Assembly: GCA_013214025.1 (NCBI GenBank)
Contig: JABSRN010000067.1
Coordinates: 28,489 to 92,488 of the forward strand
DNA length: 64,000 bases
Direction of reading: 5' to 3'
Origin: Polyangiaceae bacterium
GTDB taxonomy: Bacteria > Myxococcota_A > Polyangia > Polyangiales > Polyangiaceae
The notes below the pieces were generated by a model. That model did not search any database. It saw only the letters and a program-made list of their open reading frames with translations, and had not been told where the DNA came from. Below, in pieces: positions 1 through 6,006 of this stretch (positions within the stretch are counted from its first letter, which is position 1; each line of letters starts with the position of its first letter). Position numbers and translations under genes: made by a program.

Positions 1-2
1 GA

Positions 3-242
3 CACAGCCCGATCCGCTACCGGAAGGATTCAACCTGGACCCCACCACTGGCGCCGGCGCGTTGGGAGTGGACACCCCAGCAGTTCGACATAGGCGAACA
101 CGGCACATGGTTCGACACCTTCCTCGTCCGCATGCACTCGAACGTCGATCCCTCGTCATTGTTTCATGCTGACCCGAGTATCAGACTAAGCGGCCACTTC
201 GGACGTTGGTGGTTGTTCTCCCGAGACCGCACAAACAATTAG
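3..242 (+). CDS. C-terminal end of an unrecognised protein, cut by the window edge
   Basis: An open frame runs in from the left edge and stops at TAG 240-242, giving 79 residues with no start in view. The composition is protein-like and Trp/Phe/His-rich near the end (motifs such as HGTWFDTFLVRMHSN and SGHFGRWWLF). The other two forward frames are shorter and Arg/Pro-rich. I do not recognise the family; soluble and membrane-associated forms are both possible. The next gene on this strand starts 650 bases later, beyond a structured non-coding block, so this gene probably ends its transcription unit. The call rests on frame continuity and composition only. Confidence 0.5.
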   Translation, partial: HSPIRYRKDSTWTPPLAPARWEWTPQQFDIGEHGTWFDTFLVRMHSNVDPSSLFHADPSIRLSGHFGRWWLFSRDRTNN

Positions 243-287
243 GCCGTCCGTCCGTAATTTTCGGTATTGGCGAAGCGCAATTTCAAT

Positions 288-360
288 CTTGAACGAAGAG
301 CGCTCAAGACGCCCCTAAGCGCACGAACCGTTGCGCCAAAATTTTGGCACGGGCTGTGCT
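288..360 (+). promoter_or_regulatory. Sigma-54-type promoter with upstream inverted repeat
   Basis: TTGGCACG at 344-351, four bases, then GTGCT at 356-360. The -24 GG (346-347) and -12 GC (358-359) are exactly ten bases apart, and only one base departs from the TTGGCACG-N4-TTGCW consensus. A perfect palindrome GCCAAAATTTTGGC (335-348) overlaps the -24 box. Further upstream, CTTGA (288-292) and TCAAG (304-308) form an inverted repeat around an 8-bp palindrome GAGCGCTC (298-305), a plausible enhancer site for a sigma-54 activator. Predicted transcription starts near 371 and runs rightward into the hairpin array. No start site has been mapped. Confidence 0.6.
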
Positions 361-422
361 CTACAAGTGTGGCAAGGCACGAACTTCTGGCCCTCCAGCC
401 AGGGTTCCTGCCGAGATTTTCG

Positions 423-710
423 CACAGCGGCCCATCAGAGTCCCCCCCTCCGGGCCGCTGTGTTTTTTTTCGCACAGCCATTCGACGAATCCCCCCCTCC
501 GCTGAATGGCTGTGTTTTTTTCTCTCACGGCGACCCGGCCCCCCCCTTTGGGTCGCCGTGAACCTCTTCTCACAGTCGCTGAACCTTCCCCCCCCTCGGT
601 GAAGCGACTGTGTTTTTTTATCACGGCGGCCTGAATACCCCCCCCATGAGGGTCGCTGTGACCTTTTCCCGAAGCCATCTGGACCCCCAGATGGCTTTGT
701 CTTTTTTGTC
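423..710 (+). ncRNA. Tandem array of six C-loop hairpins, several followed by T tracts
   Basis: Six hairpins occur head to tail at about 50-base intervals: stems 423-433/452-462, 473-483/504-514, 526-536/550-560, 571-580/603-612, 622-632/650-660 and 672-682/687-697. Stems are 10 or 11 bp and perfect, except unit 5, which keeps pairing through G-U wobbles. Stem sequences differ between units, whereas the first five loops all carry a run of 7 or 8 C. T tracts follow units 1 (T8), 2 (T7) and 4 (T7), and a T-rich stretch follows unit 6. Units 3 and 5 instead start CACGGCG and are followed by a similar GTGA(A)CCTYTTC. A sigma-54-like promoter lies about 60 bases upstream on the same strand. It reads as a structured small RNA or a terminator array; I recognise no named family. 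Confidence 0.6.
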
Positions 711-892
711 CCTCCCGCATCGAGAAACTATGAAAACCACCCTACCAAAGCGGCGACTTGGCCTCGGGTTTCAGCATGCCAGTGCAGTCTCCGTTGGCCG
801 TTTCAGCTCTGAAGCAAGCTCCCGGCGAAGGACCGACCGCCTTGTCCTCGGGCAGCCTCATTCGTTAGGATCAGCCCGATCGGCCACGATGA

Positions 893-1663
893 ATGAGCAA
901 TGACCCGCAGATGGACGACGTCCAGAGACCGAAAGCCAACCGCCAGCGGAATTGCCTGATCGTCACTCCCACCTACAACGAGCGGGAGAACCTACAGCTG
1001 TTCCTCCAGGGGGTGTTCGCTGCTGCGCCCGACGTTCGGGTGATGATCGTCGACGATGCCTCACCCGATGGCACAGGTGAGCTCGCAGACCAGATCGCCC
1101 GAGAGGACAAACGAGTGTCGGTACTGCACCGCCCGAAGAAACTCGGGCTGGGCACGGCCTACATCGAGGCCTTCCAGCGAGGCCTACTCGACGGCTTCGA
1201 TTACTTCATCGAAATGGATACCGATCTGTCCCACGACCCCGGCTATCTGCCTGACTTTTTCCGCGCCTTCGAGAGCGGAGCCGACGTCGTTGCCGGTAGC
1301 CGGAACATCCCCGGTGGCAGCGTCGAAGGGTGGGGACCTGCCCGCCATCTATTGAGTCGCGGGGGCTCGATTTATTCACGGTGGATCCTAGGCGTAGACG
1401 TGGCGGATCTCACCACCGGCTACAAGGGCTTCACCCGCAGCGCCCTCGAGCGGATCGATCTCTTTCAAGTCCGCAGTAACGGATACTCATTCCAAATTGA
1501 AATGACCTTCCGCGCTCTGCAAGCCGGCCTTCGGGTCCTCGAAGTCCCTATAGTCTTCGTCGATCGCCGGGCGGGGCAGAGCAAAATGAATCGCCGCATC
1601 TTCGCAGAGGCGATCGGCGTGGTCTGGAAACTGCGCTACGCCGCCGCGCGGGGCCAGCTGTAG
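893..1663 (+). CDS. Polyprenol-phosphate mannosyltransferase-type glycosyltransferase (GT2)
   Basis: 256 residues, a GT-A fold family 2 glycosyltransferase of the dolichol-phosphate mannose synthase group. Visible motifs are IVTPTYNERENL near residue 23, the nucleotide-binding VDDASPDGT, the DxD region MDTDLSHDP, and the SRNIPGG and TTGYKGF segments typical of Dpm1/Ppm1. No C-terminal membrane domain is present, so it resembles the short soluble form. It would transfer a sugar from a nucleotide sugar (GDP-mannose in characterised relatives) to polyprenyl phosphate at the inner membrane. The convergent neighbour is a GT-C enzyme of the type that uses such lipid-linked sugars, which suggests a shared glycosylation pathway. 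The start could be ATG 893 or ATG 911. Confidence 0.85.
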   Translation: MSNDPQMDDVQRPKANRQRNCLIVTPTYNERENLQLFLQGVFAAAPDVRVMIVDDASPDGTGELADQIAREDKRVSVLHRPKKLGLGTAYIEAFQRGLLDGFDYFIEMDTDLSHDPGYLPDFFRAFESGADVVAGSRNIPGGSVEGWGPARHLLSRGGSIYSRWILGVDVADLTTGYKGFTRSALERIDLFQVRSNGYSFQIEMTFRALQAGLRVLEVPIVFVDRRAGQSKMNRRIFAEAIGVVWKLRYAAARGQL

Positions 1664-1749
1664 CTTTCCATTTCTGGGTCTGGTCCGTCTTCAGCACGAA
1701 GTCCTCCGGACGCGGCGTGACGCCGACCAAGCTCCGGAGAGGCGCACGC

Positions 1750-4812: not shown

Positions 4813-5079
4813 ATTGGGACAGCCGACGGAATTCGCCGGTCCCCCAATGTACGTGGGCCTTCGTTACAATCTCCCCTGGAGGGCTCAGGCGCGAACGATC
4901 GCGCGACACGATTGCCGTGGCCGCGATATCTCTCCGCTCCAACACAAGCCAAAATCGCGACGCCTATTGTCCCCACGCACAATATACGTCGCGGAACACT
5001 GATTTAGTGGCTAAAACGTCGCTTGCTCGGGGTGTTTCCAAAGTCTCCCACGCCACCAGAGGGCGCTACACTGAGAGCG

Positions 5080-6006
5080 GTGGCAACGGGGCGGAAGCAA
5101 CTCAGGACAACCAGCCATGTTTGGATCCGGACCGCGCTGCGGGGCGCGCTGTGTAGACTCTGGCTGACAGCAATCGCCGGCGTCAGTCAATCCTGCACGC
5201 CAGATCCCACCGCCGACGAACAGGTGGACTGGTTATCTGGCAGGCTCGACAGCGGAATCGTCACACGATTGCCCGGTGATGGCAGCTCCAATCCGATCCC
5301 GGGCGCGGAAATCTGCAACGACCGCACGGACAACGACGGCGACGGACGAACGGACTGCGACGATTCCGAATGCTGGTACGATCCTGCATGCACGGGACCC
5401 GAAATATGTGACGACTACGTGGACAACAATGGAGACGGCCTCACTGACTGCGCCGATCCCAGCTGTTGCCGGGAGCGAGGTCCCCTCTGCATCGACTACA
5501 TGGACAACGACGATGACCGCCTCGTCGACTGCCATGACCCAGACTGTGTACTGGCCGACAATTGCCGCGAGACCGGGGCCGGGTGCGACGACGGACTGGA
5601 CAATGACGGCGATGGGCTAACCGACTGCGACGACCCAGAATGTTGCCATGAAGGCGGCGACGCCTGCGCAGACACCATCGACAATGACGGTGACGGCCTG
5701 GTCGACTGCGACGACCCAGACTGTAGCTCAGCCCCCCGTTGCGTCGAGACAGGCCCGGAGTGTCGAGATGGCTTCGACAATGACCTCGACGGACTGATCG
5801 ACTGTGACGACTCGGACTGTAAATGGCTGTGCACGGAGAGTCTCGACTGCGACGATGGCGTCGACAACGACTCGGATCGCCTCACCGATTGCGACGCTGA
5901 CCCCAACTGTTTTGAGTACTCTTGCGACAACCAGACCGACGACGACAACGACCAACTCACAGACTGCGATGACCCTGACTGCAGCGGCGTCGCCCCGTGT
6001 CCTTGA
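5080..6006 (+). CDS. Secreted protein with eight Asp-rich Cys-bracketed Ca-binding repeats
   Basis: 308 residues from GTG 5080; an in-frame TTG at 5023 is the alternative. The N-terminus has a basic region and a short hydrophobic stretch ending at a Cys (AIAGVSQSC), suggesting export and possibly lipidation with a weak lipobox. From about residue 80 there are eight repeats of roughly 30 residues on the pattern CxDxxDNDxDxLxDCxDxxC, for example CDDGLDNDGDGLTDCDDPEC. Such repeats resemble thrombospondin type 3 and MopE-type motifs, which bind calcium, and each repeat has paired Cys that could form a disulfide. The next gene, converging from the other strand, encodes a VWA surface protein. Function is unknown. 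Confidence 0.7.
   Translation: MATGRKQLRTTSHVWIRTALRGALCRLWLTAIAGVSQSCTPDPTADEQVDWLSGRLDSGIVTRLPGDGSSNPIPGAEICNDRTDNDGDGRTDCDDSECWYDPACTGPEICDDYVDNNGDGLTDCADPSCCRERGPLCIDYMDNDDDRLVDCHDPDCVLADNCRETGAGCDDGLDNDGDGLTDCDDPECCHEGGDACADTIDNDGDGLVDCDDPDCSSAPRCVETGPECRDGFDNDLDGLIDCDDSDCKWLCTESLDCDDGVDNDSDRLTDCDADPNCFEYSCDNQTDDDNDQLTDCDDPDCSGVAPCP

Follow-up and report, generated by a model that had tools for sequence, protein, structure and literature searches.

A six-hairpin array with C-run loops and an upstream sigma-54 promoter match in a Polyangiaceae genome, a candidate riboregulator with relatives in its order

What is encoded by a tandem row of hairpins whose stems vary in sequence yet stay paired, and whose loops keep a run of C? 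The question is raised by a 64,000-nt stretch of Polyangiaceae DNA (the window), in which the original prediction had placed six such hairpins at 423-710, with stems of 10-11 bp, 7 or 8 C in five loops and a spacing near 50 bases. Six tandem hairpins were indeed found at 423-705, with tails reaching 709 and C runs of 7, 7, 8, 8 and 8 in five of the loops. The unit-to-unit spacing across units 1-5 was 52, 46, 52 and 48 nt, and the predicted stem length proved to be the lower bound of the 10-14 bp given by the folds. Folded singly, every unit was better than 200/200 of its own shuffles (z from -4.0 to -7.5), and the block 415-715 reached a z of -12.3, equalled by 0 of 100 shuffles. When units 1-5 were aligned, 54 of 55 pair cells were paired (98.2%, against an average of 85.2% in shuffles) and 6 of the 11 pairs had changed on both sides, with the pairing of unit 5 retained through G-U pairs as proposed. 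The T tracts after units 1, 2, 4 and 6 and the special tails of units 3 and 5 (GTGAACCTCTTC / GTGACCTTTTC), said to alternate in part, are both present in the sequence. Unit 6, with a loop of 4 nt and without a C run of 7, is likely the final intrinsic terminator (Table 1).

Table 1. Positions of the array units and of the upstream elements in the window. Folds are those of the structured part of each unit; scores are those of covariance model R1, which was trained on the five C-run units (1-5) with unit 6 left out.
Feature	Position	Strand	Fold	C-run start	Details	R1 score (bits)
Sigma-54 (-24/-12) promoter match TGGCACGGGCTGTGCT	345..360	+			10/11 consensus positions	
Putative leader and predicted +1 near 371	371..422	+	~376-412		52 nt, hairpin with CCUCCA loop	
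Hairpin unit 1	423..470	+	423-462	442	C7 loop (CCCCCCCUCC), T8 tail	57.6
Hairpin unit 2	473..521	+	473-514	491	C7 loop (CCCCCCCUCC), T7 tail	57.4
Hairpin unit 3	525..569	+	525-561	539	C8 loop, without T tract	48.6
Hairpin unit 4	571..619	+	571-612	588	C8 loop, T7 tail	52.7
Hairpin unit 5	621..669	+	621-661	638	C8 loop, three G-U pairs, without long T tract	51.3
Hairpin unit 6	670..709	+	670-699		short loop, TCTTTTTTG tail, terminator-like site	23.1

Units 1, 2 and 4 are alike in sequence, as are units 3 and 5. Duplication therefore probably enlarged the array, and the copies then diverged under what was probably a pairing constraint. The proposed selection on RNA structure and loops is supported by homologous arrays and covarying stems, whereas the copying of DNA that it was meant to replace has evidently also taken place. 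A second array is absent from the same genome, where the next-best model match has an E of 0.31. On either side of the array lie a 625-aa ORF ending near 243, without a Pfam match, and, on the same strand and about 185 nt downstream, a family-2 glycosyltransferase gene at 893-1663. Open reading frames run across the array on both strands (111 and 119 aa); a coding reading was rejected because the stems covary. Farther along the window, an ORF at 5023-6006 carries repeated acidic repeats of the DxDxDG type, which we take to be perhaps calcium-binding.

The feature likely begins upstream of 423, and the predicted extent therefore holds for the hairpins rather than for the whole. The best match in the 64-kb window to the sigma-54 consensus lies at 345-360, with the first hairpin starting 62 nt after it; in seven positional relatives a sigma-54 match stands 62-67 nt ahead of the first unit. 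All promoter calls reported here are consensus matches. The same genome encodes a protein with a sigma-54 DNA-binding domain (PF04552, 218 bits). From the usual distance to the -12 element, a +1 is predicted near 371, which would leave a likely leader of about 371-422. Its hairpin folds with a z of -2.2 (5/200 shuffles were equally good), and across 10 loci its pairs found weak support, with little covariation.

Homologous arrays in related genomes, which had been expected to emerge from a covariance-model search, were found. Since Blastn of the region against 59 genomes matched its own genome alone, the family is detectable by structure models only. R1 gave matches at E<=1 in 18 of the 59 genomes, the own genome counted, and several of these hold clusters of 2-4 hairpins. 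A second covariance model made from 30 hairpins (R2) was positive at E<=0.01 in 60 of the 289 genomes of the window's class: 35 from its own family, 13 from the rest of its order and 12 from other orders. When genomes were drawn from the phylum, model matches were obtained in 23 of 377, 21 of them within the class; outside the class, one locus (L151) combines a pair of C-run hairpins with a promoter match of 9/11, and another (L158) has a C8-loop hairpin with a T tail and without a promoter match. Covariation extended in turn from 6 of 11 pairs in the window to all 11: in 118 distinct hairpins of relatives every pair changes on both sides and 95.6% of 1289 cells are paired, and although this alignment had been fitted to the model, 0 of 500 shuffles scored as high on cells paired or on covariation.

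Grouping of the matches together with the window units gave 108 clusters; these come from 62 genomes, none of which holds more than six, and 88 of the 108 have a single unit by the model. Left out before clustering were the R1 loci L016, L018-L021 and L028, R1 matches without an assigned locus, and repeated places. L016 and L028 show no promoter-like site on reading; one omitted R2 match (G018:C2:445108) does carry a 9/11 promoter match. Both L016 and L028 belong to genome G006, which has five R1 matches, and their hairpins, similar and with a short C run, are apparently another dispersed repeat.

As no covariance model contains the promoter, promoter counts are independent of the hairpin search. 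A sigma-54 match was counted when it reached 9/11 or more and lay no farther than 200 nt away, in all clusters with at least 100 nt of upstream sequence (n=106, including the window; L077 and L097, at contig ends, were dropped for short upstream sequence). Of the 106 clusters, 84 had such a match upstream, compared with 4 that had one downstream and 3 that had one on the opposite strand, and the 84 clusters span 50 genomes, the own one included. Removal of near-duplicates left 77 of 95 upstream vs. 3 downstream and 2 on the opposite strand. Because the rows of the A4 alignment had been chosen after the loci were read, other loci were also counted separately: outside the training loci 68 of 88 clusters had an upstream match, against 2.1% in dinucleotide shuffles, and with L008 and L026, which had been read earlier, also excluded, the figures were 66 of 86 vs. 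4 and 3. Background was low. A match of at least 9/11 occurred in 1.94% of 8550 200-nt windows in 855 kb of the own genome, and none of the 104 other runs of at least seven C in the same 855 kb had a sigma-54 match; a control on ordinary terminators of this genome yielded just 4 terminators, too few to be informative. Among multi-hairpin clusters, 19 of 20 carried the match and the twentieth is cut by a contig end. At the same time, 22 of the 106 clusters were without a 9/11 match and, outside the training loci, the share was 66 of 76 in the own order vs. 2 of 12 in other orders, so some model matches are of another kind. At L095, L111, L123, L138 and L140, all from the remaining orders of the class, model-matching C-run hairpins stand without a sigma-54 match; they may belong to a different RNA or be chance matches.

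The distance from the promoter box to the first hairpin (matches of at least 8/11) was bimodal, at 9-20 nt or 53-73 nt, with 5 clusters fitting neither class. The shorter spacing was seen in 59 clusters, 54 of them with a single hairpin by the model; at this distance the RNA would begin at the hairpin itself, at about +1. The longer spacing, in 26 clusters including the window, leaves room for a leader, which is followed by 1, 2, 4 or 6 hairpins. Single-unit clusters mostly end in T residues (in 81 of 88, six or more of the 12 nt closing the model match are T). In the long-leader group 22 of 43 C runs contain CCCUCC, vs. 7 of 67 in the short-leader group.

Neighboring genes were compared at 15 loci, mostly with 1.5 kb of flank. 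Eight loci have at least one of three neighbor genes in common, at 34-56% identity to the window copies, and these genes lie upstream of the arrays, with the exception of one downstream in G020. The number of units at these eight loci differs: six in the window, four in G020, two each in G012, G032, G209, G211 and G161, and one in G282. This indicates that the place is old and that unit number has changed there. Duplication of whole loci was seen elsewhere: L012 holds, in tandem, two complete genes of two hairpins each (1450-1544 and 1821-1917), both with a sigma-54 match of their own and of identical sequence, and at L079, L083, L131 and L132 neighboring copies of a hairpin locus are separated by about 0.2-2 kb, every copy having a separate promoter match.

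In our view the array probably encodes a single noncoding small RNA, about 340 nt long, that regulates in trans, its C-run loops being predicted to pair with G runs of mRNAs. The hairpins, the promoter match, the covariation, the occurrence in 50 genomes and the inconsistent orientation of the next gene are read directly from the DNA; the steps that follow are proposed on that basis. Sigma-54 RNA polymerase with a partner activator would transcribe the array from a start near 371. Some transcripts would terminate already at unit 1, 2 or 4, so that a ladder of RNAs with 1, 2, 4 and 6 hairpins results, and the rest would stop after unit 6. The exposed C-run loops are predicted to pair with G runs of mRNAs and may thereby change translation or stability, and more units would mean more loops per RNA, with an effect on dose or through multivalent binding. 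With its five C7-C8 loops the array has the exposed loop C runs that characterize trans-acting sRNAs with C-rich loops, and such loops recur in the relatives. In the available portions of the respective papers, the C-rich loops of sX13 act on G-rich motifs (PMC3771888), and for B11 two C-rich loops that are redundant, together with a G6 tract, are described (PMC10470900).

Pairing to ribosome-binding sites had been one hypothesis for the loops, and it found no support in the own genome. The pattern GGAGGGGG-N3-10-ATG occurred there 16 times (once inside the array), compared with 14 for a GTA control and 20 for the reversed pattern, and none of the 16 sites opens an ORF longer than 85 aa. Likewise, among 479 ATG starts in 855 kb, picked without regard to G runs, G5 was found in 10 start regions vs. 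6-15 in five other windows, i.e., it was not enriched. Control-level site counts and the lack of G-run enrichment leave general blocking of ribosome sites unsupported in this genome; possibly the targets are few, or lie within genes. PmaR is a further precedent for C-rich loops acting on G-rich mRNA sites, and its predicted sites are mostly away from the ribosome-binding site. A hint of G-run enrichment in another set of starts was discarded as biased, those starts having been picked partly by G-rich upstream sequence.

The missing signal at ribosome-binding sites would also suit a sponge, in which the C-run hairpins would soak up an RNA-binding protein or some other RNA, as would the several near-equivalent units, numbering from 1 to 6 at related places. 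This explanation is compatible with a trans-acting RNA, but a single unit in most clusters fits it poorly, and we consider it unlikely. The T tracts bring up another possibility, akin to the ladder of leaky terminators raised originally: that units 1, 2, 4 and 6 are intrinsic terminators insulating neighbor genes and that the released RNA has no function. The T tracts are compatible with a ladder as such, and in the 20 multi-hairpin clusters final units were T-richer than internal ones (mean 6.1 vs. 4.7 of 9, one-sided p = 0.005, three low final values coming from folds that split the array wrongly). However, a terminator has no need of conserved loop runs of 7-8 C, units 3 and 5 have kept pairing and C runs without a T tract, and the promoter match stands at fixed distances before the hairpins, with one hairpin at about +1 in 54 clusters. 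Insulation as the sole role therefore appears quite unlikely.

We consider it quite improbable that the array is a cis-acting leader or attenuator of the glycosyltransferase gene that follows it on the same strand. Genes resembling membrane glycosyltransferases do stand beside several related loci; however, the genes that related loci have in common are found upstream of the hairpins in all cases but the one in G020. Moreover, in the 74 clusters with a 9/11 match for which a next gene was called, that gene was on the same strand in 34 and on the other strand in 40, by crude calls in which ORFs overlapped 32 of 80 arrays. The about equal use of both strands disfavors a role in cis and favors action in trans. 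Finally, a DNA-level element without an RNA role, in the form of an other-strand G-quadruplex or of protein-binding repeats, is scarcely credible: the minus strand does carry G7-G8 runs opposite the C-run loops, but runs about 50 nt apart make an intramolecular quadruplex unlikely, compensatory changes preserve Watson-Crick and G-U pairing of the stems, the T tracts and the promoter match are confined to one strand, and R1 scores unit 1 at 18.9 bits on the minus strand vs. the plus-strand value in Table 1.

How, then, does the proposed trans-acting RNA relate to described ones? The statement that no named RNA family has this layout held up, as Rfam 15 returned no family above its cut-off in the window, where ar7, 6C, CcsR1 and a few other families matched below threshold, and only true Pxr and tRNAs in 20 further loci. 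6C RNA / B11 (RF01066) of Actinobacteria shares the C runs in hairpin loops, but it has two hairpins, comes from a different phylum and aligned to units 2-3 with 25.3 bits (cut-off 47). We know of no sigma-54 layout for it. The ar7 RNA of Alphaproteobacteria (RF02342) resembles the window in its leader hairpin, two C-loop hairpins and U tract, and its whole model aligned to 358-518 with 35.6 bits (E 6.5e-5), below the cut-off of 60, as was a second match of 25.1 bits. It has three hairpins only, against six units and a leader in the window, and was over its cut-off in 0 of 59 genomes of relatives. The CcsR1-4 or cuckoo RNAs of Rhodobacter are tandem, named for their CCUCCUCCC motif, and processed from a common precursor that ends in a terminator, according to the accessible part of PMC10253847; unlike the window, they have a co-transcribed DUF1127 gene and an RpoH promoter, and CcsR1 scored 14.4 bits in the window (cut-off 65.3). 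sX13 of Xanthomonas has three stems whose C4-C5 loops act on G-rich motifs near start codons; it differs from the window in having three hairpins only and shorter C runs, and the portion of PMC3771888 available to us mentions no sigma-54 promoter.

The closest resemblance is to Pxr (RF01812), a multi-hairpin noncoding RNA that likewise combines a sigma-54 match with a C7-loop hairpin; the original prediction had noted neither this likeness nor the promoter match of the array. As far as the available text of PMC5568312 goes, Pxr has a sigma-54 promoter and three stem-loops, arose at the base of the Cystobacterineae and occurs as tandem paralogues in Cystobacter. The excerpts of PMC5684412 at hand state that a C-to-A change in the SL1 loop abolishes function and that M. 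xanthus has no Hfq, and those of PMC11928866 that direct targets await confirmation. An 18-base word from a printed primer (likewise in the excerpted PMC5684412) retrieved 10 records, of which six are from Myxococcus or Pyxidicoccus and one is titled Comamonas; the unrelated L049, L050 and L058 were left out. The record titled 'Comamonas sp. KCTC 72670' (L051, BNCN01000002.1; genome of 9.0 Mb) has pxr and an ORF with the activator motif, and is probably a mislabelled Myxococcus genome. All seven examined loci have a 10/11 sigma-54 match and, 29 nt downstream of it, the C7-loop hairpin SL1, a distance that falls between the two spacings of window-type clusters. In Pxr, this single C-run hairpin is followed by the short SL2 and by the terminator SL3 without a C run, whereas in the window a leader hairpin precedes six units. 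The activator gene PxrR adjoins Pxr, and the activator motif was present in ORFs of 6 of the 7 Pxr loci (the exception being L053, where 570 nt precede the 18-base word); it was found in none of the other fetched loci, whose flanks are mostly 1.5 kb, nor within 13 kb upstream of the window array.

Sequence models kept the two apart in both directions. The Rfam Pxr model (gathering threshold 80 bits) gave no match in window positions 1-1700 at E<=5 and none in 19 related loci at E<=0.01, compared with 129.2 bits in M. xanthus (L054). None of the 377 genomes drawn from the phylum exceeded the cut-off, so this draw included no recognizable Pxr genome; four weak matches there, without a 9/11 promoter and resembling ordinary terminators, were rejected. 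Conversely, R1 and R2 miss SL1. Of the Pxr hairpins, R2 recognizes only SL3, the terminator, with weak scores of 17.0-19.3 bits in 6 of the 7 loci; R1 reaches about 10 bits in 5 loci, and there solely on the strand opposite to SL3. In seven genomes reached through the Pxr loci, used as a negative control, R2 had 0 matches at E<=0.01 and four weaker ones, none with a promoter match. Judged by these models the window array is not a Pxr; layout and loop agree, and membership fails.

Our literature search, which mostly did not extend to subscription journals, found no report on myxobacterial sigma-54-linked C-loop RNAs besides Pxr. Tentatively, and with slightly less than even confidence, we suggest that the array belongs to an undescribed class of sigma-54-driven C-loop riboregulators, widespread in its order, and that no larger member has been seen; the class would range from 50-nt one-hairpin RNAs, beginning at +1 and ending at their own terminator, to laddered RNAs of six hairpins. 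The one-hairpin form, made of promoter, hairpin and terminator, may count among the smallest sRNA genes that are complete in themselves. Separate sigma-54-linked C-loop RNAs, in up to six clusters per genome, would supply natural variants for target finding and for testing the role of the loop C runs. Pxr, which gates multicellular development in Myxococcus by holding it back, could then represent the same regulatory idea in a Myxococcus branch, and if so, control by C-loop sRNAs would predate, and extend beyond, the Cystobacterineae, at whose base Pxr is reported to have originated.
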